A stretch of 64,000 bases of DNA from Lineolata rhizophorae (taxonomy: Eukaryota > Ascomycota > Dothideomycetes > Lineolatales > Lineolataceae). The stretch covers positions 562,049 through 626,048 of the forward strand of contig MU001673.1 in the NCBI GenBank assembly GCA_010093515.1, read 5' to 3'. Position numbers and translations under genes: made by a program. This document shows, piece by piece, positions 3,814 through 51,325 of this stretch (its first letter is position 1; each line of letters starts with the position of its first letter). Under the pieces are notes generated by a model that made no database searches, was not told the origin of the DNA, and saw only the letters and a program-made list of their open reading frames with translations.

Positions 3814-5761
3814 ATGTTCACCGCCGCAAAGGGAGCCGGCGGCGCTGTCCGCCAGCTCGCCGTCCGCCAGCAGCAGAATGTGCGCACCGCGCTCGTTGGC
3901 GCGCGCGCCGCGAGCACGTGGGCCAATGTTCCACAGGGACCTCCCGTATGTCCATCCCATGTTTAGAGCTGGACCTCGATGCGCAAACCATGGTGTTGAT
4001 TTGCATAGCTAATGGCTGACCGGCTTATACGCAGGATGTATGTTTCTAGATACCCGCCTTCATGTGATGTTTGAGAATGGCATCTCGTCCGATATGCACA
4101 AGGCCATGGTTGACACTATGTGCTCACTGTTGGATGATTTGCGTGCTTTTTAGGCTATCCTAGGTAGGTTGCGCCGGGACTCCGCGGTTAGTATGAGTGA
4201 CACTGACAATGTCTATATAGGCATTACCGAGGCGTTCAAGAAGGACAGCCACCCCAAGAAGATCAACTTGGGTACGTTTGATGTGAAGTTTTTCTTTTGG
4301 TCTTTGTTAGCCGTCTATCCGTCCAGGGATCTTGCTGGCATCTCTGCTGTCCTGTCGAGGATCCGAGTTATCTGTCATCGGATTAAGAGTACTATTCGGA
4401 CACCGTTAAATCCCGGAATGAAAGAATAACTTCCGCCTCTTAGAGTCTCGTCTTTCTTTGCCATTCTCCTCTGCCCAAAGCTAACCCCTCCACCCAAGGC
4501 GTCGGCGCCTACCGCGACGATGCTGGCAAGCCCTACGTCCTCCCCTCTGTGCGCACCGCCGAGCAAAAGGTCGTCGATGCGCGCCTCGACAAGGAATACG
4601 CCGGCATCACCGGCGTGCCTTCGTTCGTCTCGTCCGCCATCAAGCTCGCCTACGCCGACTCGCTCGACCCGTCGCGCGTGTCGGCCACGCAGTCCATCTC
4701 CGGCACGGGCGCGCTGCGCATCGGCGGCGCCTTCCTACAGCGCTTCTACCCGGGCGTCAAGACGGTCTACATCCCGAACCCGTCGTGGGCGAACCACACG
4801 GCCGTCTTCTCGGACTCCGGCCTCAAGGTCGAGAAGTATCGCTACTACAACAAGGAGACGATCGGGCTGGACTTTGAGGGTATGGTCGAGGATATCAAGA
4901 ACATGCCCAAGGGCAGCATCGTCTTGCTGCACGCGTGCGCGCACAACCCGACGGGCGTGGACCCGACGCAGGAGCAGTGGCGCGCCATCAGCGACGCCGT
5001 CAAGGAGGGCGGCCATTTTCCCTTCTTCGACATGGCCTACCAGGGCTTCGCGTCCGGGGACACGGATAGGGATGCGTTTGCGCTGAGGCACTTCATCAAG
5101 GAGGGCCACAACCCGTGCCTGGCGCAGAGCTTCGCCAAGAACATGGTCCGTCTCACCCATCCCCTTCTTTCTTCTCAGTTCCATCCACCTAACGCGACTC
5201 CCTCCTCGTCCAACAGGGCCTCTACGGCGAGCGCGTCGGCGCCTTCTCCATCGTGACGGCGTCGCCCGAGGAAGCGGCGCGCGTCGCCTCGCAGGTCAAG
5301 ATCCTGGTGCGCCCCCTGTACTCGAACCCGCCCGTGCACGGGGCGCGCGTGGCGTCGGCCATCCTCGGCGACGCGCAGCTCAACGCCCAGTGGCTGGCCG
5401 AGGTCAAGGCCATGGCCGACCGCATCATCGACATGCGCAAGCTGCTCAAGCTGAACCTCGAGAGGCTGGGCAGCCGCCGCGATTGGAGCCACATCACGAG
5501 CCAGATTGGCATGTTTGCCTACACGGGCCTGGGGCCCGAGCAGATGGAGCTGTTGGCTAAGGAGGTGGGTCGAGTTTCTTTCCCTTGGGGGCGGGGACGG
5601 ATCGGTCGGATCAAGGGCTACTCGGTTCGATCGGTTCAGGGGCTGACTTGACTTCGTAGCACTCCGTCTACGCCACCAAGGACGGCCGCATTTCCGTTGC
5701 GGGCATCACTACGGGCAACGTTCAGCGTCTCGCTGAAGCCATTCATGCCGTTACTGGTTAA
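3814..5761 (+). CDS. Aspartate aminotransferase, mitochondrial
   Basis: Seven exons: 3814-3945, 4035-4037, 4154-4163, 4221-4271, 4499-5145, 5217-5564 and 5660-5761, giving 430 aa. The enzyme is a fold-type I PLP enzyme interconverting aspartate/2-oxoglutarate and oxaloacetate/glutamate. The N-terminus (about 30 residues, Arg/Ala/Gln-rich, no acidic residues) is a mitochondrial presequence. Visible motifs are NPTG near residue 215, FFDMAYQGF near 243-250, and the Schiff-base lysine in SFAKNM at about K279. The second exon is only three bases (GAT, one Asp) and the third only ten. Both are needed to rebuild the conserved VPQGPPDAILG-ITEAFK segment, and each is bounded by good GTATGT/GTAGGT donors and CAG/TAG acceptors. 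Intron 5 uses an unusual GTCCGT donor. The enzyme assignment is very secure; the 3-nt exon rests on splice signals plus protein conservation. Confidence 0.93.
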
Positions 5762-15540: not shown

Positions 15541-16740
15541 GGTTCTGTTTCGGGCGGAAAAAAGCGCCGAGGGAAAACGGCGGTCCGATCGTCAGCTTTT
15601 CGGTGTGATGCGGGGGTGGGAGCAGCGGCTTTGGTGCGTCGTCGACGAGAAGAGAGATGGTTTGGGGGGGTTGGAAGGGGAGAGGTGGAGGGAGAGGCAA
15701 GGAAGGTAAACAGCCAGGAGCGAGGCGGGGAGAAAAGGAGCGAGTCTGGGGGGCCCCGTCGGCGTCGGCGGGCGGAGAAAGGGGAAGCGCGAAGCTCTGC
15801 GTGCCTGCGGGCCGTTGCGCTGCTGGCAGGAGCAACGGGCAGCACCGCAAGCAGCAGCAGCCACGGGCCCGGTCCCGCCTGCCGCCGAGCCGCCCTGGGC
15901 GCCAAAAGTGGGTACTACGTACGACTGCGGCCGGCCGCTGGGCTTCCAGCCGGCGTCGGGGTCCTCCATCGACGCCATCCTGCTTGTTCTCGTCTTCACT
16001 TCTTTTCTTCTTCTTCGCTTATGGATGCCTTTGCGCGGGCGCGTGCTTCTCGGGCGAAGGACGAGGCGCGGCGAGGGGAGAAGGACAGCGCGGGTATCTA
16101 GGCAGGTGCAGGCGCGCGGGGTTGTACGGCCGGGGGAGAAGGGTCGTCGAGCCGGGGCGGTATATAAGTGCTGAGGAGCGGTCGCGGCGCCCGGCGGCGA
16201 CGGGGGCAGAGGTAGCGGGACTTCGTGGCTTGTCAGCCGACGTTGGCGACGTGGACCGGCGGGCGCGCGCGCGCGCGCGCGCTCACGAGGGTTCGAGCGG
16301 CGGCGCTGGTCTCGGACGGCGTGAGACGCTCGACGGGCGCGCGCGCGCTGCGGGCACGACTCACGAGCGCGGCCGGGGGCGGGCAGGCGCGAGGGCCAGC
16401 GGGCGGGCGGCAGGAAGGAGCGATGACGTGCGGAGTGCGTGGCAGCCTGGACGCCTGGGCGGTGAGCGCAAAGGAACGGGCGAGCAGGCGCGACGGACGC
16501 CGGTCGTGGGCGCCTTTTTGGACCGGCCTTGGTGCGGGAGGCAATCGCGACCTTGGAGGCTCAGGTGGGTAGGTGGCGGTGGATGGATTCCCTTAGGCCG
16601 ACAGGCTCCCCGACGGCGGAGCTGCGGGCGCGCCCGGGGGCTCTCACGCAACGCACAGGCACGGCTTCGCTTGCTTTGCTCGCTTGCTTTCCTGGCGCCG
16701 GGAAGGTCCGAATTTAGGCGGCGGGCATGAAGAAGGAGAG

Positions 16741-16782
<42 letters not shown>

Positions 16783-18266
16783 TCAGCAGCAGCAGCGTGG
16801 CAGCTCTTTCAGTGTCTCTCCCCTTGGTGCCAAAATGGTCTCCTGTCAGATCCCAGGGGCCCACCGCGGTGGCCTCCACTCGAGGGCCCGAAAAAGGAGG
16901 CCCTGTGGTCGTTTCGGTCGGACTGGCCCGTCGGGTTGCGAACGACTCGAGCCTTCTCCTGCCTTGGGCCCATTCCGACTCATTTCCGGGCGCGCCATCG
17001 CCCAGGCGGGCCCAGACGACGTAGGTGGCTCCGCAGGCTTCCTTGTCATTCGCCCCAGCTGGGATGCGGGCTTGGTGACGTTTTTCGCTGCGGACCAGTG
17101 GTCTGTCTTCTTCCGTGCATAACGCAAACGCATGTATCGGGCAACTTCTCCATCCTGCTACATACGTATGTACGACGTGCCGGATTGCTGGGTTGAGACG
17201 GGCGCGGTGAATGACGGAGGCCAAAAGGGGGGGAGCGGGGCGGGGTGTGGTGCCCCAAGAGGATGCGGCTGGAGGCTTGTGCGTCCCTTCCGTCCCCCGC
17301 ACTCCGACGCTCTCAGGCGCTGCAGGCATGAAGCTCGTAGAGTCTCCAGCAAGCGGCGGCGAGTCAGGGACCTGAAATGAAGGGTGCCCCGGGGCCTGCG
17401 TAAAGGGTGGCTCATGCCGCGCCGTTGGCCCGTTGTGCATGGGGCCCGTGCACGTGAATACATAGGTACGTGTGTACCACGCACGTACCCAATTTCCGTC
17501 TGCACGTGACGGGCAGGCCAAGGTGACCGAGGGCGGACTGGCGCATCACGTGAACAGCGGAGGCTCGTTGCCAAGCCGGCTGCAGCGGGGCGGACTCGGC
17601 ATTTCCGCCCTGTCGCTCCTCTGGGTTCGCGGGTTGAAGCGAGATTGGCCGAGGTCTGGCAGCGGAAGGTGCGCACGGCCCGACGGTGCCGCCGAGAGGC
17701 TCTCCTCCCTTGCGCTCGCCGGGGCAGGCAGCCAGGCAAAAACCGGCCGCAATCGGTCTCCAGGCACCCCGACCAACCCAGCGCTCTCGCCCACTCGCCC
17801 GCCCTCTCCTTGCACCACCGCATTAACCGCTCGCCCGCCCCGTCGAATTTTCATCTCGAAAAATCCCAGCCGAGCCCGCGGGCGGCTCCCGGTGGATTTC
17901 CGATAGCATCGCCGCGATAAGAGGGCACGCATCGGGCGTTTTCACTTCCTCCCCTTGGCCCGGTCGCGCGCGTCGGTCGCTGGCGCTCCCGCCCGCAAAC
18001 AGCCCCCGGGCGCGTTTTCCTCTCCTCGCTAGGCCGCCTGTGTCCGCCCGGTGGCCGCCCGCACCCCCCCGAAATAACGCGACTGGCAGCGCTGCTTGCT
18101 GGCGCGCCCCCGGCCGACCGCGACGACCAACCGCTTCTCCAGCGCCCGCCTCGCGCAGCCGCCGCCGCCGCCGCCGCCACCACCACCATTGCGAGCAACA
18201 GGCCTTCGATCGACCCCGGCAGGATTTTTTTTTTTTTTCACCCTCTCTCGTGCTGGAGGCCGGGCG
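15541..18266. other. GC-rich intergenic region with repeats and a TATA-like box
   Basis: This divergent interval lies between the coiled-coil gene (minus) and the bromodomain gene (plus). It contains a TATATAAG sequence near 16157, a GC dinucleotide run at about 16263-16281 and a CAG tract at about 16744-16796. Several long open frames cross it on both strands, including a 386-codon one at 16361-17521. They are made of Arg/Pro/Ala/Ser low complexity typical of GC-rich non-coding DNA and show no domain. Confidence 0.45.
16744..16796 (+). repeat. CAG trinucleotide repeat
   Basis: About 13 CAG units are followed by TAT and four more CAG units. The tract is open in all frames and would read as polyglutamine in one, but no conserved protein surrounds it. 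It lies between two divergent genes, about 1.2 kb upstream of the coiled-coil gene start. Confidence 0.8.
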
Positions 18267-21200
18267 ATGCCTGCGGACCTCAGCGCCTACACCCCGCTCG
18301 AGTCGCTGCTTCTGTTCCAGTCGCTGGCCGCCTACGGCATCGAAGCCCAGACCTTCAGCCGGATTTCGGACACGCTCGGGAAGAACCCTTACGTGCGCCA
18401 TGGCGCGACCTTCGACCGCGGCCGCCTGAGCCCCGACGCGCTGCGCGAGCTCTACCTGCGCCTCCTGCGCGAGGAAGCCCTGACCGAGCACCGCCAGCTC
18501 CACCTCCATCGGCCGCAACAGCCCCCCAGCAAGAACGGCGGCAGGGCCGGCAGCGAGCCCGCCGAGCCCGCGAGCCCCGATGGAGACGCCCGCGCCCCGT
18601 CCCCTCCTCGCCCGTCCGCCGCCGCCGCCGACGGCTCCCACCAGCTCTCGTCCCGCAAGCGCAAAGCCCCCAGCCCGGCGCTCCCGTCGGTCCACGAGGC
18701 CGCCAGGCACGCCCACCTCATCCCGCACCTCGTGGCGAAGCTCTACGCCCGCTACCGCGACCACGTGGTGCGCGAGATCCGCGACGAGGAGCGCAGGCAC
18801 GCGGCGCTGCAGCGCGAGATCGACGAGATCGCCCGGGGCGGGTGGGACGAGCGGTTGCGCCAGGACGTGGAGAAGGCCGCCGCGGGCGAGGACGAGGATG
18901 CTGGGTGTCGGGAGCAGCGGCGCGGAAACGAGGGGGAGGAGGGGGAGGAGGAGGAGGAGGAGGAGGAGGAGAAGGACGGGGGAGAGGGGGAGGATGGGCA
19001 GGACGGGGAGCAGCCGGAGCAGCATGTTCATTTGCTGCCGAACGGGAAGGCGCAGGACGAGCGGGATGCGAAGTCTCCAAAAGCAGAGGGCGCACCGCCC
19101 GTGCCTGCCCAGGACGGCCCCAAGCTAGACTCACCGGAGCGGGCAAGCCCCGCCAAGTCGCCGGCTGCGCAGGCTGCTGCGGAAACTACTACGGAAACTA
19201 CTACGAAAACTACTCCCGCTGCACCTGCTGCAGCTCCTCCGGAGGAGAAGCCGCAGGTCGCTCCCGTCAACGCGGAAGCGCACGTTCCTCCTGCAACTGT
19301 CGCTACCGATCATGCGCCTACGGCACCTCCAGAATCGAAGCCAACGGAGCAAACTGCCGCCGGCCATCCGGCTTTCTCGCCCGCAGAAGCTGCCGAACGC
19401 CCAGGCTCCAAGTCCCCAAAGAAGACGAGGAGACCCTCGCAGCAGCCGGCCGGTCAAGCTGGTGCTCCCGCAAAGCAACAGGCTCCGCGGCCTCAACCCC
19501 CTCAACCTCCGCCTCAGGCGCTCCAACCTACTCCATCTCCGGGTCCGCAACAATCTCCGTATGGCGCTCCGCCCACTGCGTACGGTCCTATGCTTGGCCC
19601 GGCTGCCAGCCCTATTCAGCAACATGGTGTCCCAAACCAGGCGCAACTACAGCAACGCTCGCCCTCTTCTCCAAACATCATGTCACCTCATCCCCCTAGC
19701 TTGGCCTTCCCGCCTCCTCATCCGGGCATCTCTCCCTCGGACACTAATGCCCATCCAACCCCCCAGGCAGCAGGGAGATCCCCGCAGCAGCGAAAGAAAC
19801 AGCCTCAACAGGCACTGTCTCCATCGCAGCGCTTCTCTCCGATGCCGACCGGCCAAGCTGGCGGAAGGTATCCCAATTCCGCCGCGCCACCAACTCCAGG
19901 ACCGCCGCAGATGCAGCCCCCGGCGGGGTTCCCCCAGCATCCAGCATACCCCGGACAGCACCCGCCTCCGCACGGAATCTACTCGCCTTCTCCACATCAC
20001 CAGCACCCTCCTGTGCCTCCGCACTACGGTGGGGTCATGCTCCAACCTTTCCAGGTCACACCGCAGACCCCCATGCAGCAACACCACCAGCAATTCGCGG
20101 CTCAGACTACGCCGGCGCAGCATCCGCAGCGGACAACAGCAGCAAGTGCTCCGCCAAAACCAGGGCCTGCCCCTTCTGTCCCGCAACCTCACTCAGTTGG
20201 ACTCCCTATTCCCCAGCCAACGACACCTCATGGCGTGCCGCCAGGCCAGTTCGGTCCTCCGCAGGTTATGCAGGCTTGGCAACAGGCCGGCGGCGCTCCT
20301 CCCCTCTGGCTGCGACCGGGAGGACAGCAGCCGCACGCAACGCCTCTAGTGCCCGCTACCGCACCGGCGGCGCCACACCGGAAGTTCACGGTGTGGAAGC
20401 ACCCGAAGCGCGAGTCGCGTTCGCCCGTCAGGCCCTCCGATTTCGAGTCCATCGACGACATCGAGCAGGCTCCGCCTTCGCCCGCGACCACTCGGCCATC
20501 AAAGCAACCGCGCAGGGGCAAAAAGGACGACGTCGGCGCCGTAGAGTTGCCTCAAGAGACCAAGGAAAAGAAGCCGCGGGGACGAGCAGCCAAAGCCAAA
20601 GCGAAGGACAAGGAGCAGCACGAGGCCGCCCAACAACCCGACACTGCGGAGGGAACCCCAACGGACATGTCTCCTCCGCCACTCCCGGACAGCCAAGCGC
20701 ATCCGTCAGGGCCCACCCCGAAGGCCAAAACGCCCGCGGCCCGCGGAGGCCGCCGCAAGACCGCTGCCGCGACCTCAATCACGCCCGCCCCCGCCGCAGG
20801 CACGTCGCGCACCACGCGCGCCACCAGCACGGCCTCGTCGGTCCTGACGGCCTCGGTCGGCGCGGGCGGTGGCCGCGGCCGCACGCGCTCCACCTCGGCC
20901 GCGTCGCCCGACGCGGGCGGCGTGGACGTCGAAAACGCGCCTTCGGTGGGCGCCGGCGGGCCTAGCTCCGGCACAAGGCGCGCCACGCTTATCAAAAACG
21001 AGCCGAGCACGCCGGCCGCCGCTGCTGCCGCGTCCGCGCCGCCGAGCATCCCGGAGGAGTCGCCGGCCGCCATGGCGGCGGATCTGGAGGCCACGCCGGC
21101 GGCGGCGACGAGGCGCGCGGGGAGGAGGCGCGCGGGCACTGCGGCGGCGGCCAAGGCGGAGGCGGCCAAGACGGCCAAGGCCGAACAAGAAGCCAAGGCG

Positions 21201-22346
21201 GCTGCCACGGCTTCGGGTGCCAAGGCGGCGGGGCCAGCGGCGAGGTCTCGGCGGAAGCGTCGCCGCGGCGACGATAGCGATGACGAGCTGCTTGCCGCAT
21301 CGACGACGGTGTCGGCGTCGTCGACGGCGAAGCGGTCGCCGGGTGGTGGCGGCAGCGCGAGAAACCTGCGCTCGCCGACGGCGGACCCAGCATCATTTGC
21401 TGCCGGTGCTGCCGGTGCTGCTTCGACTGGCCCGACCGGCCGTGGCGCATCACGCACGTCTCTCCCGCCGCCTCCGCCGCGGCCACCTCTAGCTCCACCT
21501 CGGCCAGTCGTCGCGCCCGCCAAAGCGCCGACGCACGTGGTGGCGGCCCGCCAGTTCCCCAAGATGAGCCAGCCGGTGCTCAACGACATCCTGAGCCACA
21601 AGCACGCCAGCCTCTTCTCGAACCCGGTCAAGGACAAGGACGCGCCCGGCTACTCGGACATGATCCGCCGGCCCCAGGACCTCAAGAGCATCCGGGCCGC
21701 CATCGCGGCCGGGGCCCGGGCCGTCCAGGCCGCCACGGCGCCGTCGTCGGCGGGATCCCCCGCCCCGGGCACCCCGACCCCGACCCCGACCCCGGCCCTC
21801 GCCCCGTCCGTCGTCCTCCCCGCCCACGAAGACATCGTGCCCCCGCGCGGCATCGTCAACTCGGCCCAGCTCGAGCGCGAGCTCATGCGCATGCTGGCGA
21901 ACGCGGTGCTGTTCAACGCGGGCGGCAACGGGGGGCTAGCGGCGTGGGTCGGGGGGGGCGGTGCCGGCGCCGGCGCCGGCGCCGGCGGATCCGGCGGCGG
22001 GCCCGGAGGCGGCGGATCCGGCGGCGGCGGCGACGGTGGTGGTGGCGGCGGCGGCGGCGGCAACGAGCCGGACGCGGCGGCCGCGACGGCGGCGGCGGAC
22101 GGCGGCGGCGAGGGCGTCGTGCGCGACGCGCGCGAGATGTTCGAGAGCGTGCATGCGTGCGTGAGTAATTGGCGGGGGGCGGAGCGGACGGTGGAGGAGA
22201 GCCAGGTTGTGGCGCAGGGGGTGGCGGCGGAGAGGGAGAGGGAGAGGGAGAGGGAGAGGGAGGGGGAGGAGGATGGGGAGGGGGAGCGGGGAGCTGGGGG
22301 CGGGGGAGGTGGGCCGGCGAGAGCGGCGAAGAGGAGGAAGGTTTAG
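18267..22346 (+). CDS. Bromodomain protein of the Bdc1/BRD8 (NuA4) type
   Basis: A single exon of 1359 aa. The ATG at 18267 is chosen because MPADLSAYTPLESLLLFQ starts the conserved-looking N-terminal block. A helical, charged segment (about residues 150-230) follows, then a long Pro/Gln/Ala-rich disordered middle (about 230-1090) with basic patches such as SRRKRRRG. A C-terminal bromodomain starts near residue 1096 (FPKMSQPVLNDIL, SNPVKD, PGYSDMIRRPQDL) and includes NAVLFN near 1211, whose final Asn is where the acetyl-lysine-binding Asn lies. The protein ends in KRRK, a likely nuclear signal. Bromodomains read acetylated histones; BRD8 and S. pombe Bdc1 are NuA4 acetyltransferase subunits with this layout. 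Two insertions of low complexity interrupt the bromodomain. The call as a bromodomain protein is secure; the NuA4 assignment is inferred from architecture. Confidence 0.8.
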   Translation: MPADLSAYTPLESLLLFQSLAAYGIEAQTFSRISDTLGKNPYVRHGATFDRGRLSPDALRELYLRLLREEALTEHRQLHLHRPQQPPSKNGGRAGSEPAEPASPDGDARAPSPPRPSAAAADGSHQLSSRKRKAPSPALPSVHEAARHAHLIPHLVAKLYARYRDHVVREIRDEERRHAALQREIDEIARGGWDERLRQDVEKAAAGEDEDAGCREQRRGNEGEEGEEEEEEEEEKDGGEGEDGQDGEQPEQHVHLLPNGKAQDERDAKSPKAEGAPPVPAQDGPKLDSPERASPAKSPAAQAAAETTTETTTKTTPAAPAAAPPEEKPQVAPVNAEAHVPPATVATDHAPTAPPESKPTEQTAAGHPAFSPAEAAERPGSKSPKKTRRPSQQPAGQAGAPAKQQAPRPQPPQPPPQALQPTPSPGPQQSPYGAPPTAYGPMLGPAASPIQQHGVPNQAQLQQRSPSSPNIMSPHPPSLAFPPPHPGISPSDTNAHPTPQAAGRSPQQRKKQPQQALSPSQRFSPMPTGQAGGRYPNSAAPPTPGPPQMQPPAGFPQHPAYPGQHPPPHGIYSPSPHHQHPPVPPHYGGVMLQPFQVTPQTPMQQHHQQFAAQTTPAQHPQRTTAASAPPKPGPAPSVPQPHSVGLPIPQPTTPHGVPPGQFGPPQVMQAWQQAGGAPPLWLRPGGQQPHATPLVPATAPAAPHRKFTVWKHPKRESRSPVRPSDFESIDDIEQAPPSPATTRPSKQPRRGKKDDVGAVELPQETKEKKPRGRAAKAKAKDKEQHEAAQQPDTAEGTPTDMSPPPLPDSQAHPSGPTPKAKTPAARGGRRKTAAATSITPAPAAGTSRTTRATSTASSVLTASVGAGGGRGRTRSTSAASPDAGGVDVENAPSVGAGGPSSGTRRATLIKNEPSTPAAAAAASAPPSIPEESPAAMAADLEATPAAATRRAGRRRAGTAAAAKAEAAKTAKAEQEAKAAATASGAKAAGPAARSRRKRRRGDDSDDELLAASTTVSASSTAKRSPGGGGSARNLRSPTADPASFAAGAAGAASTGPTGRGASRTSLPPPPPRPPLAPPRPVVAPAKAPTHVVAARQFPKMSQPVLNDILSHKHASLFSNPVKDKDAPGYSDMIRRPQDLKSIRAAIAAGARAVQAATAPSSAGSPAPGTPTPTPTPALAPSVVLPAHEDIVPPRGIVNSAQLERELMRMLANAVLFNAGGNGGLAAWVGGGGAGAGAGAGGSGGGPGGGGSGGGGDGGGGGGGGGNEPDAAAATAAADGGGEGVVRDAREMFESVHACVSNWRGAERTVEESQVVAQGVAAEREREREREREGEEDGEGERGAGGGGGGPARAAKRRKV

Positions 22347-27918: not shown

Positions 27919-30900
27919 TCACTTCCCCCAACTCTCCTTCTCGTTCAACCCCCTCTGCACCTCCTCCACAACCCGCACGCACTCCTCCGCCACGTCCTCG
28001 CCCACGCGCCAACTCCTCAACACGACCCCCTTCGAATCCAGCACCTCCTTCGCCCTCGCCCACCGCCTCCGCCACGTCTCCTCGCGCTGCTGCTGTTGGC
28101 GCGCCGCTCTGCTCAGCTGGACTGCGGCCTGCTGCTGCTGTTGCTGCTGCTGCTGCGCGGACGCCGCGCCTGCCAAGCCGGCGACGGCGGGATCGGCCGC
28201 GGCTTGGCCCTGGCCCGCCGAGCCCGCCGTGCTGGCCGCGGACGCGCGGCGAGCGCCGGTGCGGGCCGCGCCATTGTCGCCGTTGTTGCCGGCACCGCCG
28301 CCGGCGGAGATGGCGCCGACGGGCTGCGCCTGCGCGCCCGAGGCGGCGTTCCAGGCGCTGCGGACGCCCGACCCGGCGTACGAGGCCGCGGCCGCCGGGT
28401 ACGAAGTCAGGCCGCGACGGGGCGGCGGGGGCGGAGGGGCTGGCTTGCCCGGTTGGGTGGGCGGGGAAGGGGCGGCGGAGGAGGAGCGGGGGGCGGGCTG
28501 GCTGGTTTGGCTGTTGTTGGGGCGGCTGGTTTGGCTGGCTGGTCTGTTGCTTCCGGGTATGTGAGCGGAGGCTGGAGGGAGTTGGTTGTATGCCGACATG
28601 AGTTTCTCCCGGGCAGATGAAGCGTAGGATTGTGATTGCTCCTGGGTGGAGCTGTCTGTTTGCGCTCGGACTGGAGTCTGTGACGAGGATGGTCTGTCGG
28701 AGTTGTTGGCTCGAGTAGGTGACGAGTGTGGTTGCGATGTCACACGCGAAAGAGACGTCGTCGGTTGTCCGGTATGCGGGGCGCTACGTCGCGGAGGTGG
28801 TGGTGCTGGCACTGGTTTTCTCACTGGTGTTGATGACCGAGACGAGGGTGCTTCGCCGGGTTTCTGTTTTGTCTCGCTCGACCCCGAACGCAGGGCGGTA
28901 GGTTTCTTGGGCGGCGTTGGCGCTGGCTTCTTTGCGCTAGCGATTGAGGCTATAGAGTTGCGCTTGGGAGAAGCGGTAACTTCTGAGATGCCGTCGGGAG
29001 CGGTCCGCATGTTCGATGGAGATTCAGATAATCGATGCGGCTCTTCGCCATTAGAAAAGTCGACAAGTTTGCCCATTGGAGGATCCATCTGATGTCTTTG
29101 TGGAGCAGCCGGTTCAGTAGGTCTGCGTGGTGGCAGTCTCGGCGGTTTCTCCTCCTTGACATCCCCATTTCGAGCCTCGCGTTCTTTCCGTTCTTGCTCT
29201 TCGAAGTCTCGAAGAGATGCCTCAATCGCAGCTTTGAGTTCTGGATCGTCATCTTGTGCGTTGGACAACGGATCGGCAGCCTGTTTGTTGCCGGCCGAGA
29301 AACCTTGCATATTGTCGTCATTGTTTGAGATCCGATCGCCGGTTAGCGGTCCCATGGAAGAGTCAAAGAAGCCCTGGGTTTGAGGGATAGTGACATCCCT
29401 GATATACACACCAAGGACTCGACCGGGGTTTTCCTGAACGAATTGCGTGTACACTTCTAGGTCTGCCTCGCCGCTATCGCCAACGAGGATGAATCTCCTC
29501 TCCGGGAAATCACTCGCAATCTTATCAAGCGTGCCTTTCTTGCGTTCCGCAACGGGTTCAAATATCCCTTGAAGCATGCCGCTGTACTGTTTGAGGTGGA
29601 AGGACCCAGGAGGCAAGCCGGCTAGTGAAAAGAACTTCGTCAAAACGGGGTAAAGCTGCCACGGCGAATTGGAGACGTAGTGAAACTTGACGCCCATCTT
29701 GGCGAGACGAATGTACCACTCCTTAACCCCTTCAATTGTTAGGTCGGCCAGATCCCTGATGAAGGCGTTGCGAAATATCTCCCGAGCTCCAGCGCTTATA
29801 GCAGAATGTTTGATGGTATCGTCAATATCACTAATGACGCTAACACCCTTAGGCTCGGTAATAAGGACTCGCTCAGTGACTGATAGATTCTCAGAAGCAA
29901 GAATACGAACGTGGGTTGGCACAAAATCCAGAGCGGCACGAATTGCGAAGTGGCCGTACGGATTAGTCATTATGGTCCTCTGCCGGGACACACTCTCGTT
30001 ATAGAAGAATGCGCTTATAGGAGTGTTCGCTAGCGGGTTCGATAGAAACGGTTTCAGTCGGGCCATGAGATGAGCATTTGCAGTTGCCAGCTCAGCGGGA
30101 CTCATGTTCGCAGGCTGTACCCACGACTCCCTCCTCTTGATAGAATTGACTGGGCTATCTCTGCCCGGAGAGTCCGTGTTGCCCGGACTTTGCTGACCTG
30201 GCCGAGAAGATGCCATCTGCGAGCGGCCTCGATTTTCGGGCATGTCAACGCTGTCCGCATCAGATGCTTTGTTTGGTTGCTCGCTAAATCCTCCGCGTGA
30301 AGCTACATTTGCCTCCGATTCGCCTTTCTTCATGATCGATTCCGCTTCCTTCGACGCTATCTCGTCTATCCGTTGGGAAGACTTGGCATCGGCGCGCTGA
30401 CGTAGTCCCTGTGGACTCGGATTCCGACTCGATGCTGCGCTTCCGGTTTGGCTCGACTCATATCCTGAGGGCGCAGGTATTCCCACCAATTGCCTAGCTA
30501 GGCCAACAAATATGCGCTGCTTCCTATTCATAGCGCCCCTATGTGGTGAGTATACCCATCCCCGGATATCAACATCCACTATAGCGTTGTCGTCTTCGTA
30601 TTGCTCCCATTGTTTTCGCCAAAACTCCGCATCGCCAGTTCCATTCGTATCTCGAACGTCCCTTCCATCGCCGGACGACTGTTGTATGGTACCTGGCTCT
30701 GCCGAGGGCTGAATGCTATTAGAAAACCTAATTATCGCCGTAAAAGTCTGGCTCCGCGTATACGAACGACTTGCCTTCGACTTTATATGCCTTCTCGCAT
30801 AGCTCGGAAACAAAATCATCTCCTCATCTCCGCTCCTCACCATGGCGGCATCCGGCCACGCCCCCGGCGCCTGCTCATCATACGGTTCCGTCACCTGTCT

Positions 30901-31101
30901 CTCCCTGTTTCCCCAGCCCGACGAATAGCTCTGCTGGTACGACTGCCGCAGCTCGTTCGCCGCCTTCAGATAGCCCGCCAACTTCCTTCTCCTCGCCCCG
31001 GGCTCCCGGCCTTCGCTCCTGAGCCCACCCATTGCCGCGGACGTATCTCGCCGTCCATCGCCGACACCACCACCACCACCACCGCCCGCAGAGCTTGTCA
31101 T
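27919..31101 (-). CDS. APP1: Phosphatidate phosphatase App1-like, actin-patch associated
   Basis: A single exon of 1060 aa from the ATG at 31101. The N-terminal block AGYLKAANELRQSYQ is the usual start region of this family. A conserved core follows: DVDIRGWVYSPHRG, then the HAD-like catalytic motif DIDDT at about residues 425-429 (preceded by VISD), then FHYVSNSPWQLYP, and ERRFILVGDSGEADLEVY, which holds the later HAD motifs. The family dephosphorylates phosphatidate to diacylglycerol; yeast App1 sits at cortical actin patches. The C-terminal third (about residues 700-1060) is Pro/Ser/Gln-rich with PPxPPR-type stretches fit for SH3 binding, matching that location. Upstream of 31101 the frame stays open for about 530 bp but has no ATG, so a longer N-terminus would need an upstream spliced exon. 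Confidence 0.9.
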   Translation of the reverse strand: MTSSAGGGGGGGVGDGRRDTSAAMGGLRSEGREPGARRRKLAGYLKAANELRQSYQQSYSSGWGNRERQVTEPYDEQAPGAWPDAAMVRSGDEEMILFPSYARRHIKSKASRSYTRSQTFTAIIRFSNSIQPSAEPGTIQQSSGDGRDVRDTNGTGDAEFWRKQWEQYEDDNAIVDVDIRGWVYSPHRGAMNRKQRIFVGLARQLVGIPAPSGYESSQTGSAASSRNPSPQGLRQRADAKSSQRIDEIASKEAESIMKKGESEANVASRGGFSEQPNKASDADSVDMPENRGRSQMASSRPGQQSPGNTDSPGRDSPVNSIKRRESWVQPANMSPAELATANAHLMARLKPFLSNPLANTPISAFFYNESVSRQRTIMTNPYGHFAIRAALDFVPTHVRILASENLSVTERVLITEPKGVSVISDIDDTIKHSAISAGAREIFRNAFIRDLADLTIEGVKEWYIRLAKMGVKFHYVSNSPWQLYPVLTKFFSLAGLPPGSFHLKQYSGMLQGIFEPVAERKKGTLDKIASDFPERRFILVGDSGEADLEVYTQFVQENPGRVLGVYIRDVTIPQTQGFFDSSMGPLTGDRISNNDDNMQGFSAGNKQAADPLSNAQDDDPELKAAIEASLRDFEEQERKEREARNGDVKEEKPPRLPPRRPTEPAAPQRHQMDPPMGKLVDFSNGEEPHRLSESPSNMRTAPDGISEVTASPKRNSIASIASAKKPAPTPPKKPTALRSGSSETKQKPGEAPSSRSSTPVRKPVPAPPPPRRSAPHTGQPTTSLSRVTSQPHSSPTRANNSDRPSSSQTPVRAQTDSSTQEQSQSYASSAREKLMSAYNQLPPASAHIPGSNRPASQTSRPNNSQTSQPAPRSSSAAPSPPTQPGKPAPPPPPPRRGLTSYPAAAASYAGSGVRSAWNAASGAQAQPVGAISAGGGAGNNGDNGAARTGARRASAASTAGSAGQGQAAADPAVAGLAGAASAQQQQQQQQQAAVQLSRAARQQQQREETWRRRWARAKEVLDSKGVVLRSWRVGEDVAEECVRVVEEVQRGLNEKESWGK

Positions 31102-34100
31102 CTTAGGCCAGTCCGCCACAGCAGGCGCATCTTTGCCGCGGGTCGGCGGCGGCAGCGGTGTGCGCGTTCCTAGCCAAAGCCCGAGGCCTCGCCAGCGGAG
31201 CGCCTGCAGCAAGCCGACGAAGGGACGTCTACCGCCCGCTGCGGCTACAGCTGCAGCGGAAGCGCCTCCCTTCGCCCTAAGGAGCCGGTGCTGCTGCTGC
31301 CGCTGCTCCCGTAGCGCCTGCCGGTAGAGGATGTAGCGGTAGATGCGCGCCTGGGCGCGGTGTCGCAGCGCGTGGAGGGTTTCGTGGCGGAGCTTGGAGA
31401 GGTGCGCGCGGGCGCGTTGGCGCGTCTGCGGAAAGAGGTAGCGGAGGAGCGGGGCGAGGGCGCCGCCGCTGGTGCGTCGGCGAGGCGCGAATGGGTGTTG
31501 GTGTGGAGGTCGGCGGAAGGGGCTAATATGGCTGGGGAGGAAGCTCTTGCGGCGCAAGAAGCGGAATCGCGGAGCCAGGGTTGGTTGTTTTAGGTGAGCG
31601 AAAACTTTCGGAAGAGCTGAGTAGGTGGGCAAGGACCGGTAGCTTCTAGGATGGAGCGAAAAGGAGCGGTAAAGTGTCTGGTTAGTGCGATTGAAGAGAT
31701 GCGAGAGAGAAAGAGAGTGAGAGAGAGAGAGGCGTCGGGGTGACCACGCGTATGGCTGGTAGCGGTCACCTGCAGCTAAGACGGTCGTTCGCAGGCGTCA
31801 GCATGGCGAAGCGAGTGCGTCCTCCTGCAGTGGCACGTCATTCTTCCGGGCTCCTAAAACGTTCCTCCGTCTCCCGAAACACTTTCCCAACGTCCTCCTT
31901 TCGAAGCCATCATCTGACTTTTCCGCCGGTTGGTACCGTCGAATCCCCCACGCACGCGGTCTCAAGAATGCTAAGGACTGGTATCTTCCATCACAAAATT
32001 CGAGGGCACAGCTGCCTTGTGACGCAGAAGAACCGTACACAAGACAAATCAATAGTGAAGCTCAAGTTGAATGGAACCATTAAACGACTAAACATTACAA
32101 GGCAATGCATGCTACAAGATCCTATACTGCCGAGGATGTGGTGCACATGTCAGGCCTGTCCATGCTGCCAAATACATCCTACGAATCCCCAGTCTCTCCT
32201 CGACCCTGGCAGGTGTTCCTTGCACAGTCTACTAGGTAGGTATCTGCCGAGCTGCTTCCAGTTTATCCCTCCACCTCCGACCTCACAACTGGCTCTTGGA
32301 AAAGTATGAGGCTTGAAGTGGAAGGCCATTCCACGGTCCTTCGTCACGGACGAATCTTAGCGTCGAATAGCTGCTATGTCCGGGCTGGACATAAGCTGAG
32401 TCATTCGTCATTACTTTCTTGAAATCGCATGCCTTCGTCTCGGTACACTTTGTGCATCCGCTACGCTGTTTATTTTCTTTCAAAGGCCCGGTGGAGTTCG
32501 GGCAGTAGCATGTCGTTGGGGACGTATTCCCTTGATCACTATATGTACGCGCAAGTACTCGTTAATGTCAGACATTGCTCGAAGTGTCGTAACGTGGAAA
32601 GAGGGTTCTTGCCTCGGAGCCATATCGACAGTTCGTTCCCAAGTAATGCACGGTGTCTTGAGTCGCTCTCCCTGGTCGAAAGACGATGTGCTGGTCGTCT
32701 GATGATTCCCTATACGGTAGTTCAGTCAGTGACGTCTTGTCGTTCCATCCGTAATCAGCCAGGTACCTAGTCGATTCAAGATTTTATTTCCACACTCAGC
32801 TACAATTGACTTGACAGAAGAGATTGTAAACTTTCGTTCACCTCCGTAGCAGCAAGTAACCGAAGTTATCGAGGCGGGAAAGCAAGACCGAAAGAGACGC
32901 AGCAGAGAGAAGACTCTTATTGCATTTATAGTGGGCCGACCTAACTCCTGGTTCGAAACAATATCCTAGAGGGCATCGACAGCAATTTATACACAAGAGG
33001 AGGCGGTAAATGGGCACTTGGAGGGAGAGAGCTGGGCGGAGGCAACGGCAATCCAAGAGCCTCCTGTTTCACTCGGGTCGGCATGCCATCAAGAGTGGCG
33101 AGAGGAATCTTTGGAAAGGGCTGCAGAAGGCAACCGAAAGGGACACAATATCGGGAATGGAAACGAGCCATCAGATGGAAAAGCCATCGCCGCCGGGCTC
33201 CGATTCGTCGTACGTTTCGTTTCTACTTGTTTCGAGGGAAGCACGCTTAATCGCGTGGGGTTTCCGAAACACCATGCCCGAGACTTGCTGTCTGTAAGTT
33301 GACCCGCTCCTTGGGCAGACGCTTCTGTTCTTGCGTTCATAGTTCTAATTGACAACTAATTATTTCCGTCCCTCGTATTTAGGGCGTTACGGCGGAGCGT
33401 TTCTCGGTCAGACAAAGTGGCTTCGGCGAAGGACCTGCGGCCTGTTCCGGCTTCGCGTGGCATTAACAGTCTGCTAAGACAATGATCGATTAATGCAGCG
33501 TTAGGAGGTCTTTCAAAGGCCTTACCATGTGGTCAAGCTGACAAAGATTAAGAAAATCTCATCGGTTAAACCTAGTGTGGACTGATATCTTATGTGAATG
33601 GATTATGATTTGCTCTTTGTATTCCATAATGTCAATGACACTGTCTCACTATCTGAACACTTAACAATACCGACTTTCTAGGCTCCTCAGGCATTGTGTA
33701 GACCGGAATTTTCCCGCACAATAGGATCTACCGGCCGCCGTGCATCTCCCCCACACTACAATCTTGGAGAGAACTGTTTAGACGTTAATCGCCTGAAACA
33801 TTTGCCAACGCACGCCATCAGTAGGATCCACATCGACTGCAAGATTGTATGTATGCAAGATCCATTGTTGTGGAGCCGAAACTATTGTCCAGGCGACATC
33901 CTAGATCAAAAAAGCAAATCGTCAAGTGCGGAGTCGCTTGCTCCTCAGGGATCATCCCACGCCACCTACTCGATGCGGCCAGCGAACAGCAGCCGTCCAT
34001 GGCCGACGTCTCATGAGTTTCGAATCCTCTTCACACCGCTCTTTGATAATTGACTCTCGTGGCAGCGCTAGGCGAGTGCAGCCTCACCACGCATGTATTT

Positions 34101-34988: not shown

Positions 34989-36183
34989 TCACAAAGCACT
35001 CCGTCCAGCGCCCGCTCCCGACCCCCCAAACAACGCCCTCGCATTCCCACACTCGATCCTCGCCGCCATCCCCTCATCAAACAGCTCCCTCAACCCGACC
35101 CGCATCCGCTCCGCCAACCCCACCACGCTCGGCCGGGGCGTGTACGGGAAGTCGCTGCCATACAGCATCCTGTCGGGCCCGACCAGCCGCAGCAGGCCGT
35201 GGATCTGGTCCGGGAACGGGAAGCCGGCGAGGTCGAAGAAGAAGCGGTCGCGCAGGACGCGCTTGACGCCGTCGCCGCCGGCGAGCCCGCCGGGGGGCTG
35301 GGCCCCGTAGATGACGGAGGCGAACTGCCCGAAACGCTCCGCCAGCGGCGGCAGCGCTGCCCCCGCGTGCGGCGCGATGAAGGTGATGCCCGGGCACCGC
35401 GACACCGTGCCGGAGAGGAGCAGGTTCGCGACCGCCCGCGTCGTGTCGAAGAAGAACTCGAGCATGGGCGACGGGTACTGCGCGAGGGGTCGTATGGCGT
35501 CCTCAGCGCCGTCGTCGACGGCGGTGGCGGCGGCGTCGGCGGATCCCCCGGAGGGACCTCGTAGAGGCGCGTGCGCCGCGTGGCATGTCGTGGGGTGCAT
35601 GAAGACGACGGCTTGGCGCGCGCTCAGGGCGTCGAAGATGGGATCGAGCGCCTTGTCGCCGAGGTACGCGCCGTGGGCGTTCGTCATGAGGCAGAAGCCC
35701 GCGACGCCGGGCAAGGGGTTGTCCCCGAAGACGCGGTCGATCTCGGCGAGGGAGGCGGGCACGTCGGGCAGCGGCAGCGAGGCGAAGAAGGAGAAACGGG
35801 AAGGGTGGGCGGCGCAGATGGCGGACAGGGCGTCGTTGGTGGCGGCAGTGAGGGACGCCATTTCGGACGAGGCGAGGCGCTTGAGGTGCGTGCCTGGGCT
35901 GGTTATGCTGAGGATGGAGCGCGTGATGGAGAGTTCGTCCATGAGAGCGAGGTGGGTAGTGGTGTCCCATTGCTGAGTTGTGAGGGTAAATGGGTCAGCG
36001 AAGGGAGGGAATTTGATGAGAGTGAGCGAGGGTCGAGTGAAGCGAGTGCAGTGAGGGGCGTGAGAGAAGTGAAAGACGGACCGGGATCGCAGGCATGCCG
36101 TCCGGACAGCCGTGGCCGTATTTAAGGCAGGCTTCCCGCCAGACGTCGGGGACGCAGTGAACATGGGTGTCGATTCGCTCCAT
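34989..36183 (-). CDS. Amidohydrolase-2 family protein (ACMSD/decarboxylase-like)
   Basis: Two exons, 36183-36082 and 35972-34989, give 361 aa. Exon 1 starts MERIDTHVHC, where H7 and H9 are the first metal ligands of the TIM-barrel amidohydrolase fold. Further ligand positions are visible: FMHPTT (about H160), APHAGA (about H236) and YGSDFPY (about D308). This set, with the ITSPGTH segment near residue 60, fits COG2159 enzymes such as ACMSD, gamma-resorcylate decarboxylase and fungal 6-methylsalicylate decarboxylase, which remove CO2 from aromatic or muconate acids using Zn or Mn. The substrate cannot be read from the sequence. The intron has a rare GTCCGT donor and an ACTCAG acceptor, in phase 0. 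It is divergent from the zinc alcohol dehydrogenase, about 0.9 kb away. Confidence 0.85.
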
Positions 36184-37118
36184 GACTTGAATGAGGGACT
36201 GCCCCGATTTGATTTGACTGAATTGATGGCGCCAAGCGAAGCAAAGAAAGATGGCTTCTAGCTCAAGAACGAACGAGTCGATCGTGAAAGCTTGGTCCTG
36301 AAGTGCTTTTATGCTTCACAGGCCACCCTGGCGTCCGAGCCGCTAGGGCCCGACTTCACCGTAACCCCGACGTCCGAGGCGCAAGGCCTAACGCCATCCG
36401 GCGCTCCGCAGCGGTACGACAGGTCGTCGTCAGATCTGTCTCCTCGACGTTGCTGCAGCGCATGTGTAAGACAAGACCAGTAGCGGTGCGTCGTGCCGAC
36501 GTTCGGTCCCTCCCGAGTACGAAGACCGTGCGCCGGCGCCCGTTCTTTCCCCACCGCACGAGCGTGCTTGGACCCCGAGGGAGACCGGCCTGGCCGCATG
36601 ACGTGCATATCGATTGGATTGGCGCAGGGGGTTCCTGACGGGCGGCGGCAGCACACGGCTGGGGCCAATTGTCGATCGATCGGACAGTTCTCGGCGGGCC
36701 GGCACTGGGTGGACGAAAAAAGAATGCGGATACAGCCGAGGACGGAGAGGACGGCTCTATTTGTTTTCTACTTGTTTTCTAGTGGCTTTAGCACAGCTTT
36801 AGTCCTCGTAGGGATCAAACGAGTTGCCAATGAAGAGGGTGGGAGAGGCGGGGATCCCAAGGAAATAATAGTGCCCCACATGGATAAGGACAGGCGGCAA
36901 TTGGATCCGGGGATGATCTCGGCCCTTTTATTTCTTCCCATTTTCCCTCTCCCTTGATTTGAACATTCAACATCCGGAAGGAGCGGATTTGTTTGTTTGT
37001 TTGCTTGTGTCTGATTCGGCGCTGACCTCTTCTAGTTTATTTACGTAGTCTCCATCCCCATTTCAAATTGATCATTTTTTCATATTCATACTCAAAGTCA
37101 AAAATTCCCCGACCAACA
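36184..37118. promoter_or_regulatory. Divergent promoter region, amidohydrolase / alcohol dehydrogenase
   Basis: A 0.9 kb gene-free interval between two outward-facing starts. AT content rises from about 36780 to the dehydrogenase ATG at 37119, with a TTTG-type run near 36990-37008. Arrangement suggests possible shared control; no specific operator was identified. Confidence 0.45.
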
Positions 37119-39083: not shown

Positions 39084-39565
39084 GGCGAAAAGCAAGAGTG
39101 AAAAAAAAAAAAAGAAAGAAAGAAAGCGTGCAGTCGGTCTATGTAAAATGGTGCGGATGAGGTTAAAGCGAGCTACCGGGGTGCACTAGGTATTGATTTG
39201 AATGTATAGTCGCCATGCAAGTAGCGTTGGTTAGGTGTTGCTGAGGCTAGCTTCCTTCATAACGTTAACAGTTTCAAGTACAGATACATTCAAGATTAGC
39301 CTCCCATCAAACATCATGGAAAGCAGTTCACGAGCTTGGCTAAGAAAACACAGGAATCGTGGCAAGTATTCTAATACTAACAAAATGCTATGTGCTTCCA
39401 ATTGCTTGGTAGATTATGTCGGTCCATCGTACCCATCCATCTAGCTAACCATTCCATTTTTTTTTTTGAATGCACCTCGACGTAGCGACGCATCGAAACC
39501 ACACCGTCTAATCGATACAAAACCCCTTCTCTTGCCCCTGGTGACCACCTAGCCTACTCCGCCAC
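39084..39565. other. Intergenic region between converging genes
   Basis: Contains the 3' ends of the alcohol dehydrogenase (plus) and thiolase (minus). A poly-A/AAAG run lies at about 39100-39126 and a poly-T run at about 39459-39468. No gene was seen. Confidence 0.55.
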
Positions 39566-41044
39566 CTACTCCGCCACCCACACCGCCGCCATCCCCATCC
39601 CCGTCCCCACGCACATGCTCGTCACGCCCACCTTCTTCCCCGTCCTCCGCAGCTCCGTCAGCAACGTGCTCACCTGCCGCGCGCCCGTCATGCCCAGCGG
39701 ATGGCCGAACGCGATGGCGCCGCCCTTGGGATTCACCTTCTCCTCGGGGATGCCCAGCTCGCCGCAGCACCAGAGGCACTGCGACGCGAAGGCCTCGTTG
39801 ATCTCGAAGACGTCCACGTCGGCGGGGTCGAGCCCGCCGGCCTTGGCCAGCGCCGCGGGGATCGCCTTCCAGGGCCCGACGCCCATGAGCAGCGGCGCCA
39901 CGCCCACCACGGACGCGGCCACGAACTTGCCGACGACGCGCTGGCCCAGGCGCTGCGCCGTGGAGCGTTTCATGAGCAGCACGGCCGCGGCGCCGTCCGA
40001 GATCTGGCTGGCGTTGCCGGCCGTGATGCTGCCGGAGCCGTCCTCCCCGGGGAAAGCCGGGCGCAGCTTGGCAAGGCTCTGAGCCGTCATGCCGGCGCGG
40101 ATGCCGTCGTCGGCCGACACCGTCACCTCCCTGACCTCGTCCGTCTCCGGGTCCGTCAGCCTGACCGTGACGGGGGCGATCTCGGCGTCGAAGAGGCCCT
40201 GCTTCTGCGCCCGCTCCGCCTTCTGGAAGCTGTGGGCCGCGAAGGCGTCCTGGGCCTCGCGCGAGACGCCCTTGTCGCGGGCCATGCGGTCGCTGAGCGC
40301 GCCCATGGGCACCTTGCACTCCTTGGCCACCGGGACCGAGTCGAGCAGCTCGCTGAACTCGCTGACCGCCTGCGGGCCGTACTGCGTGCTCATGCTCTCG
40401 ACGCCGGCGCCCACCCCGACGTCGATCATGCCCGCCTTGATCGCGTTGGCGATGTCGACGCACGCCTGCAGCCCGCTGCTGCACTGCCGGTTCAGCGACT
40501 TGACCGCCGTCGTCACGGGGAAGCCGGCCGCGAGCGCGGCGGCCCGGAACTCGGTCGCGCCGCCGCCCGGCGCCAGCACGTTGCCGACCGCGATGTCCTC
40601 GACGAGCGAGGCGTCGATGCCCGAGCGGGATAGGAGCGACGTGAAGGCCGAGTGCAGGAGGTCGGACGCTTGCGTGTCGCGGAAGGCGCCGCGGCCGCCT
40701 TTGGTCATGGGCGTGCGGAGCGCGCAGGTCACCACGATCTGTGAACGGCAGCTTAGCGGGCATATTACGAGGCGGGCGAAGGGGCGAATGAAGGAGCTGG
40801 TTATGTTGGAATTGGAAAGGGAGAGAGATGGGGGGAGGAGGACTTACGTCGTCAGGGTGCTGCTCCAGCAGGGCCGCCCTGCCGCGCTTCTGCGACGAAA
40901 GGTGCCCGCTCACTTGGGAGAGGCGTTCCTGAGCTAGATGGGACGAAGGGATCGTCAGCTAAAGCCGCGAACCGGCAACATGAAGCTCGGGGTCGATTGG
41001 CATCGTCGCATACCGGAATCGCTGCGACCTGTTTGGTTTGCCAT
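39566..41044 (-). CDS. 3-ketoacyl-CoA thiolase, peroxisomal
   Basis: Three exons, 41044-41014 (31 nt), 40933-40848 and 40738-39566, give 429 aa. The enzyme cleaves 3-ketoacyl-CoA with CoA in the last step of beta-oxidation. The N-terminus, recovered only by joining exons 1 and 2, contains RLSQVSGHL, which fits the PTS2 peroxisomal consensus. Catalytic residues are visible: the acyl-enzyme Cys in NRQCSSGLQA, the His in GHPLGMTGARQ, and the second Cys in CVGTGMGMA; NEAF is also present. Donors are GTATGC and GTAAGT; acceptors are TAG and CAG. Exon 1 was chosen because it alone gives an ATG and the phase needed (G+CT) before QERLSQ. Converges on the alcohol dehydrogenase. Confidence 0.93.
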
Positions 41045-47800: not shown

Positions 47801-48424
47801 CGGAACGATGGTGGGAGGCGGCTGAAACGCTTGCGATATGGGCATGTCGCCTTCCTCCATGTTGCGGAAGTAGACCTGCCATGACACGTGCACGCTCGAC
47901 GGGTCGTTTTTCCATTGCATATACATCTCATCGATATAATTCGCCGTATTGCCCTGCAGGAACGCATCATTCGGGTCCTGCATTAGAACAATCACGAGTT
48001 AGCCAATCTCCCTCGAGGCGGCACAGATGTCTACAGCTTCAGTGTGCCAAGCTCATCCGAGTTGAAAAGAAAACAACCGCAGCGGCTGACGCCACCATCT
48101 TCGACGCTCTCAAGCCGAGCTTCTCTCCAATTTCAAGGGAGGCATTAAAGCCACCAGCGTTTATCCGAGGGCTGCTTGCGGTGCATTGAAGCTTAAACTT
48201 ACCACACCCTTGTCAGTGTCCTCGGCGGAAACGGCGTAGGATCTCGCCTGCGGGCGGTTCACCAGCGCCAGCGCGCGGCGCGTCGACGCCACCGCGGAGC
48301 CGCTGCTCTCTCGCAACGACGGCCTCGAGGCGGCGGCGGCGGTCGAGAAGCTCAGCCGGCAGCCGCAGCTCGAGGGCGAGCGCAAACCGCCGCGGGCGCA
48401 TTGGCGAAACGACAAGCGCAGCAT
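44857..48424 (-). CDS. KGD1: 2-oxoglutarate dehydrogenase E1 component, mitochondrial
   Basis: Four exons, 48424-48203, 47977-45933, 45839-45466 and 45398-44857, give 1060 aa, as expected for the family. It is the thiamine-diphosphate-dependent decarboxylase of the 2-oxoglutarate dehydrogenase complex of the TCA cycle. The first exon of 74 codons is an Arg/Ser/Ala-rich mitochondrial presequence. Exon 2 opens with [19 protein letters not shown], the E1o N-terminal motif. Further motifs are [27 protein letters not shown] (ThDP/metal binding), [14 protein letters not shown], and, after intron 2, LGFEYGYS and [11 protein letters not shown]. The C-terminus ends [14 protein letters not shown]. Introns have GTAAGT, GTAAGC and GTGAGT donors. 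The aminotransferase upstream in the window shares its product/substrate 2-oxoglutarate, but the genes are 40 kb apart. Confidence 0.96.
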
Positions 48425-50217: not shown

Positions 50218-51325
50218 TCAAGCCTTGGCTTTGGTCTTCTTCGAATGGCGGGTCTTCCTACGCGAAGGTCCCTCATCCTCAGCAGCGTCATCAGCCTCCC
50301 CCGTCTCCTCCGTTTCCTCTGCAAGAACTCCATTCTTGTCTATCTTAGCTTTCTTCTGCCTCTCGGCCGTCTTCTGGAAGGCCTCCTCGGGCGGCTCATC
50401 CATATCAGCCATCTCGCGAGTCCGCTTGCCTTTCTTTCCCTTTGGCGCATACTTAGCCTCAAGATTGGCCAAGAAGTTCGAGGCGCGTGACTGATGCTTC
50501 TTCTGAATCATGGCCATGAGCTCTACCGTGCCGTTAGCCGACTCATCCTTCTTCGCGCCCTTTTTTGTGCTACCCTTGCCCTTCTTGCCGCCGTTCTTTT
50601 TCTTCTCTTCCAACTCCACAGCGAGCACCTCAGCCTCTTTAGCCTCCTTACCGGCCTCGTCGACGCGACGTTTGCGGCTGCGCTCCGACTCCTGGGTGTA
50701 CTGGGGGAAGGCTTCGACGTCGCCCTTCTTGATGGCCTCGTCGAGGATGGTACGGAAGCGTTCGTCGTCGTCGATAGGGTTGCTGAGCATGATGACCTCG
50801 TACATCTTCCTCATGTCGCCCTTGAAGCGCTCGTAGGCAGCCAGCAAGTCATTGCGCTCCTCCTCAGAGCCCTTGTACTCGCTCGCGAACTGGTTGATAC
50901 TGTCGAAGTTGACCACGTCCTCGAACTGCTCGCGGTAGAACTCGGTCCAGTTAAAGTCGTCGTCAACGTCGTCCGGGTGCAAAGTCTCCTCTGTACGGCC
51001 GGTGGCATCGTAGCGAGAACGGCGACGCGGGTCCGAGAGCACCGCGTACGCGAAGGCGACCTCTTGAAATTTCGCATGCGCGCCCTCCTTCTCGTCTCCG
51101 GCGACCTTGTCTGTCGCGTCCTCCCGTCTAATTAGTCTGAAGAATGAGTCCACATGAAAATAACCAGCGACAGCATTGGCACAAACCTGGATGCGTCTTC
51201 AGCGCGGCCTTGCGATACGCCGACTTGACCTGGTCGGCCGAGGCGTCGTGCTCGAGGCCCAACACGGCGTACGGGTCGATTGAGCTAGGCGGCTCGTCCG
51301 CAAGGTCCTCGAATTTCGGCGCCAT
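50218..51325 (-). CDS. J-domain protein, DNAJC9-like
   Basis: Two exons, 51325-51187 and 51110-50218, give 343 aa. The J domain occupies about residues 16-85: DPYAVLGLEHDASADQVKSAYRKA, then the HPD tripeptide whose Asp codon is split by the intron (G in exon 1, AC in exon 2), then KFQEVAFAYAVLSDP. This fixes the acceptor at GACAG/AC. Nearer AG sites give a stop or the wrong frame. After the J domain come DDVDDDFNWTEFYREQFEDV and a helical region (about 100-190) as in DNAJC9, an Hsp70 co-chaperone that binds histones H3-H4. The C-terminal third is Lys/Glu-rich with basic clusters (KKGKRTRE, RRKTRHSKKTK) expected for nuclear localisation. The family call is good; histone chaperone function is by homology. 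Confidence 0.87.

Follow-up and report, generated by a model that had tools for sequence, protein, structure and literature searches.

A probable one-codon exon in the mitochondrial aspartate aminotransferase gene of Lineolata rhizophorae

The gene located at positions 3814-5761 (+) of the 64,000-nt stretch of Lineolata rhizophorae contig MU001673.1 analyzed here (hereafter the window) raises the question of how an aspartate near the N-terminus of its product is encoded, and whether the trinucleotide GAT at 4035..4037 may constitute an exon in its own right. A preliminary description of this DNA had proposed such an exon within a gene for mitochondrial aspartate aminotransferase and had placed a 10-nt exon downstream of it. 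The coordinates and letters given there, from 3945 to 4221, all match the sequence.

Structure of the gene and its surroundings

The assignment to mitochondrial aspartate aminotransferase is borne out by sequence comparison: the closest solved relative of the product is the mitochondrial enzyme 8skr_A (E 9.7e-164, residues 26-429 aligned), and the Pfam family PF00155 is matched with an E value of 2.8e-87. The seven exons encode 430 residues with no internal stop, and this run of codons, free of stops and frameshifts, rules out a pseudogene. These data support the view that the locus is an ordinary nuclear gene whose predicted product is the mitochondrial enzyme.

Exon 1 (3814..3945) contains the start codon and encodes a probable mitochondrial presequence, an Arg/Ala-rich leader ahead of STWANVPQ; its residues 26-44 fall within the 8skr_A alignment. 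It reads through to ..NVPQGPP, its last codons (CAG GGA CCT CCC) ending at 3945 on a codon boundary (phase 0). Intron 1 (3946..4034; 89 nt, GTATGT..ACGCAG) is followed by the proposed exon 2 (4035..4037), in which GAT specifies Asp45, by intron 2 (4038..4153; 116 nt, GTATGT..CTTTTTAG) and by exon 3 (4154..4163), a 10-nt micro-exon of sequence GCTATCCTAG that encodes Ala-Ile-Leu and the first base of a Gly codon (phase 1 exit). After intron 3 (4164..4220; 57 nt, GTAGGT..TATATAG), exon 4 (4221..4271) opens with GCATTACC, completes the Gly codon, encodes 16 further residues and ends in phase 1. In the only coding solution found, GAT and GCTATCCTAG both lie between GT-AG introns and would be micro-exons as this term is defined (internal, approx. 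3-30 nt).

The remainder of the gene, likewise on the (+) strand, consists of intron 4 (4272..4498; 227 nt, GTACGT..CCCAAG), exon 5 (4499..5145), intron 5 (5146..5216; 71 nt), exon 6 (5217..5564), intron 6 (5565..5659; 95 nt) and exon 7 (5660..5761), which includes the stop codon TAA at 5759-5761. The acceptor of intron 4, CCCAAG, is of the non-YAG type, and a good branch site (GCTAAC) is located 15 nt ahead of exon 5.

Elsewhere in the window, a long open frame at 45932-47998 (-) matches dehydrogenase E1, the 2-oxoglutarate dehydrogenase N-terminus and a transketolase pyrimidine-binding domain, and one of 1292 codons at 27922-31797 (-) contains the catalytic domain of phosphatidate phosphatase APP1. 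The sole Pfam match of a 1422-codon frame at 18078-22343 (+) is a partial bromodomain (residues 1167-1209). A frame with DnaJ and DNAJC9 HTH domains (50221-51198, -) lies near one with a DJC28 conserved domain in the opposite orientation (52023-54212, +), the frame at 34992-36257 (-) matches the amidohydrolase family PF04909, and that at 710-2665 has a single Pfam match, which is under the curated cut-off. In the Pfam comparison of ten long open frames no match was found for 55038-57473, 39552-40958 or 16364-17545.

Evidence for the exon

In order to determine how far the splicing pattern is dictated by the protein, we enumerated the possible paths through the region, with the start codon at 3814 and the downstream frame fixed, donors at position 3901 or beyond, between one and three introns per path, none shorter than 30 nt (GT-AG, GC-AG or AT-AC), and no restriction on exon length. 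Within these bounds, the conserved 15-residue string composed of QGPP and DAILGITEAFK is produced by one of the 48,009 stop-free in-frame paths, namely that which joins GAT to GCTATCCTAG, and to this extent the original statement that there is no other way to continue QGPP correctly can be upheld. A 13-residue string from the Asp region is present in 32 of the paths; the other 31 were rejected, as the residues before Asp are lost, replaced or interrupted by insertions in them, and many use GC or AT donors.

The consequences of departing from this pattern differ between the exons. Skipping of the 10-nt exon GCTATCCTAG causes a frameshift, and retention of intron 1 or intron 2 leads to an early stop. 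When intron 3 is retained the frame stays open and 19 residues are added, and when GAT is skipped (a single intron of 208 nt, 3946-4153) it also stays open, yielding a protein of 429 aa from which Asp alone has been lost.

Asp occurs ungapped at this position in all 12 distinct loci that cover it (bacterial ones plus one eukaryote-like contig), which were found through similarity to this very protein and are not independent of one another (L006, L010 and L012 belong to one genome; L003, L004 and L005 are from Hydrogenedentota). They remained from 17 gathered loci after removal of L009, L011 and L017, which repeat L001, L003 and L006, of L002, whose alignment starts at residue 51, and of L008, a chance match to a DNA pattern in viral contigs that is not a relative. 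Among bacterial and archaeal genome contigs, 44 stretches fit a pattern and seven of these encode a relative (six bacterial loci, and one eukaryote-like contig in which PPDPILG is uninterrupted). In viral contigs 3 stretches fit a pattern, none of which encodes a relative, and in a 56-genome sample from the class of one of the source genomes (G002) a match at E <= 1e-70 was obtained in 5 genomes.

The eukaryote-like sequence (L007, positions 935-2382 of JAIYDP010000342.1) is filed as part of a Verrucomicrobiaceae MAG and comprises an aspartate aminotransferase gene with apparent introns, which is probably a contamination. It has no intron at the place considered here and is too distant to bear on the micro-exon.

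The residue is also present in all five PDB alignments listed out of 88 matches, all of them close mitochondrial-type relatives of one another. Cytosolic aminotransferases have a different residue at this position. The NCBIfam profile NF006719 scores the protein at 458.9 bits with Asp and at 451.3 bits without it, and its match to the Asp-less protein begins at residue 45 rather than 37, with loss of the residues before Asp; on this comparison the profile favors Asp moderately.

Two kinds of randomization were used to judge whether a site of this type might arise by chance. On the two strands of the window there is a single occurrence of YAG-GAY-GTRNGY, at the GAT site, against an expectation of 0.38, and when the whole window was shuffled 100 times the pattern turned up at least once in 31 cases; that it is present somewhere in the window is therefore unremarkable, and what is unusual is its placement. 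With 20,000 dinucleotide shuffles of 3946-4153 as the null for a 3-nt exon, a GAY exon flanked by an AG and a GT of whatever quality appeared in a fraction of 0.017, one with combined site scores as good as those of the proposed exon in 4 of the 20,000 (0.0002), and an exon of any sense codon with such scores in 0.0051. By our own score the donor after GAT ranks in the top 0.34% of the 6,529 GT sites of the window, and the acceptor before it is middling (top 11.1% of 7,755 AG sites).

The same exons were obtained from gene models that make no use of protein information. A simple semi-Markov model run over the whole window predicted the exons of the aspartate aminotransferase gene with GAT included; this gene had contributed exons to the training set, and the sites of the model were re-estimated from what it had itself predicted. 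In a second model, applied to the gene alone with start and stop fixed, the gene was excluded from training and no re-estimation was performed. Its donor weights are close to the frequencies reported for four Fusarium species (PMC5677156), and the acceptor and branch weights of the models are mostly our own consensus values. This second model returned the same exons (score 129.16 with GAT, 125.64 without), a preference of only 3.5 nats, which is modest, and neither model penalizes short exons. The choice of exons was stable at intron penalties of 6.5, 8 and 10, and at a penalty of 12 one intron spanning 3946-4231 was favored instead. It had been predicted that automatic annotation would drop the Asp residue; this is plausible, although a simple model that lacks an exon-length penalty recovered GAT.

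Taken with the reading frame, these observations suggest that GAT is probably a real one-codon exon.

Splicing of the region and alternative readings

The branch sites of the three introns are of unequal quality. It had been stated that CTGAC or CTAAT precedes the acceptors, which holds for intron 1, where GCTGAC (branch A 4019) and GCTAAT (branch A 4012) are candidates, and for intron 3, with ACTGAC (branch A 4206), but not for intron 2 (4038-4153), where no CTRAY site was found near the acceptor and the best candidates are GTTGAC (A at 4113, 41 nt before exon 3) and GCTCAC (A at 4126, 28 nt before it). The combination of a donor, a CTRAY or TTRAY branch site and a YAG acceptor is thus found in introns 1 and 3, with GTTGAC or GCTCAC as the only options in intron 2. 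In four Fusarium species CTRAY is present in 91% of introns, and TTRAY and CTHAH are rare (PMC5677156; 4.99% and 3.96% are assigned to these two in opposite order in its table and its text). TTGAC is a rare branch motif with EST support in Fusarium, and CTCAC fits CTHAH as written and is absent from the variants listed in that paper (PMC5677156). Intron 2 may consequently be slow to splice. The lengths of introns 1-3 (89, 116 and 57 nt) lie inside the range of 42-529 nt (median 57) given for the introns of the four species (PMC5677156).

The explanation in which we have good confidence is that GAT and the 10-nt exon are both constitutive, that introns 1-3 are each recognized across the intron, and that intron 1 and intron 2 leave the transcript consecutively. 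According to this model, three spliceosomal introns falling within 13 coding nt would cut the N-terminal coding sequence in such a way that an exon of 3 nt (GAT, Asp) and one of 10 nt remain, and introns 1, 2 and 3 would each be defined as a unit. Splicing complexes should be too large for U1 on the donor and U2AF/U2 on the acceptor of a 3-nt exon to be bound together, and since such an exon should be unable to hold both at once, introns 1 and 2 would have to be excised in succession; the 10-nt exon would likewise keep its flanking introns 2 and 3 from being excised simultaneously. Because of their good branch sites, introns 1 and 3 would most likely be removed first and intron 2 last (CCC-GAT|GTATGT to TTTTTAG|GCT). 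What the analysis shows is the sequence, its reading frame, a single solution inside the search bounds, the quality of the sites and the presence of Asp in relatives; the inclusion of GAT in the mRNA, the steric exclusion and the order of splicing are inferred.

The preliminary description had also argued that so small an exon compels splicing by intron definition. This mode does operate in filamentous ascomycetes, in which the excision of stwintrons demonstrated that intron definition governs how splice sites are paired (PMC5639578); small exons therefore need no special mode, and intron definition would be nothing peculiar to an exon of this size.

Since GAT can be skipped in frame, an Asp-less isoform is possible, and GAT might be a cassette exon, with Asp-plus and Asp-less forms both made in notable amounts, perhaps under regulation. 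The result would be two mitochondrial enzymes differing by one residue near the mature N-terminus, the choice being set by a race of two identical donors for one weakly specified acceptor. The omission of three in-frame bases without a frameshift, the hexamer GTATGT shared by both upstream donors that would compete for that acceptor, and the weak branch region of intron 2, which could slow its removal, are all compatible with this. However, the donor after GAT outscores that after exon 1 (3.70 vs 1.44 in the site score; 3.79 vs 2.50 in the gene model trained without this gene), and we know of no benefit of an Asp-less aspartate aminotransferase, so that we regard substantial production of both forms as unlikely. 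We consider it very unlikely that GAT is no exon at all, i.e. that 3946-4153 is a single intron, the enzyme (..QGPPAILGITEAFK..) lacks Asp and the splice-like flanks are due to chance. Such an intron would use the same outer donor and acceptor as the micro-exon model, its 208 nt are within the Fusarium range (PMC5677156), it alters nothing else in the 429-aa product, and it is just 3.5 nats behind when protein information is withheld. It would, however, remove a residue found in 12 of 12 distinct covering loci and worsen the fit to the family profile NF006719 by 7.6 bits, and equally good flanks around GAY were seen in only 0.0002 of the shuffles.

The anatomy of the region differs by only three bases, those between an acceptor and the next donor, from that of a donor-disrupted stwintron, in which an internal intron sits inside the donor of an external one and no exon separates the two. 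Stwintrons are known from filamentous ascomycetes and have to be spliced out in consecutive steps (PMC5639578). Here, however, the next GTATGT starts three bases on after removal of 3946-4034, so that GAT would stay in the mRNA; moreover, the [D1,2] type begins with two Gs (PMC5639578), whereas CCC precedes GTATGT in this gene. As one codon remains between the introns, this arrangement, the sole form of stwintron considered, was ruled out, and we attach almost no probability to it. The constitutive one-codon exon thus remains the reading that we adopt.

Comparison with known ultra-short exons

The exon had been described as near the lower size limit known. It is indeed near, but does not mark the limit, which is passed by a 1-nt exon with supporting reads in Fusarium CYP621A (PMC12940212) and equaled by two 3-nt exons in the duplicated lipase genes lipS of Dactylellina haptotyla (PMC5639578). 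The CYP621A case resembles that of GAT in that it concerns a filamentous ascomycete, the tiny exon restores a conserved motif, and it came to light through manual annotation of the gap between exons. It differs in length (1 nt vs 3 nt), in the effect of skipping, which breaks the frame in CYP621A and keeps it for GAT, and in its basis, i.e. RNA reads and 20 orthologous genes (PMC12940212), whereas the GAT exon is predicted from the sequence of its gene. The lipS exons share with GAT their size, a nuclear gene and a filamentous ascomycete host, but belong to another gene and another fungal class, and are covered in PMC5639578 by a single sentence without detail.

A 20-nt micro-exon of Xlr2 in Trichoderma, again a filamentous ascomycete, was missing from the automatic gene model (PMC11121469). 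This exon is longer than GAT and is regulated by glucose (PMC11121469), whereas constitutive inclusion appears likelier for GAT. Outside the fungi, exons of one codon, like GAT, are found in Drosophila homothorax and in troponin T and NCAM (3 bp each; PMC7392893). The homothorax exon, which serves as an alternative version of one of 48 bp, differs from GAT in that it comes from an animal and has experimental support (PMC7392893). In plants, 1-nt exons have been reported in APC11 and VPS55 (PMC8831610). Stwintrons are similar to the GAT region in that two introns practically abut and splicing must be consecutive, but in stwintrons an interruption splits the second donor and leaves no exon behind (PMC5639578), whereas the GAT region keeps a codon. 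A search of the open-access literature found no report of a micro-exon in an aspartate aminotransferase gene.

Because shorter exons are already in print, the general picture of splicing is unchanged by the present case. It serves as a warning that gene models may miss single residues with no frameshift as a sign of the error. If confirmed, this one-codon exon, located beside one of 10 nt in a gene of core metabolism, would join the few ultra-short exons that we found described for filamentous fungi, and would provide a natural test of the removal of individually recognized introns whose sites sit too close to be bound together.
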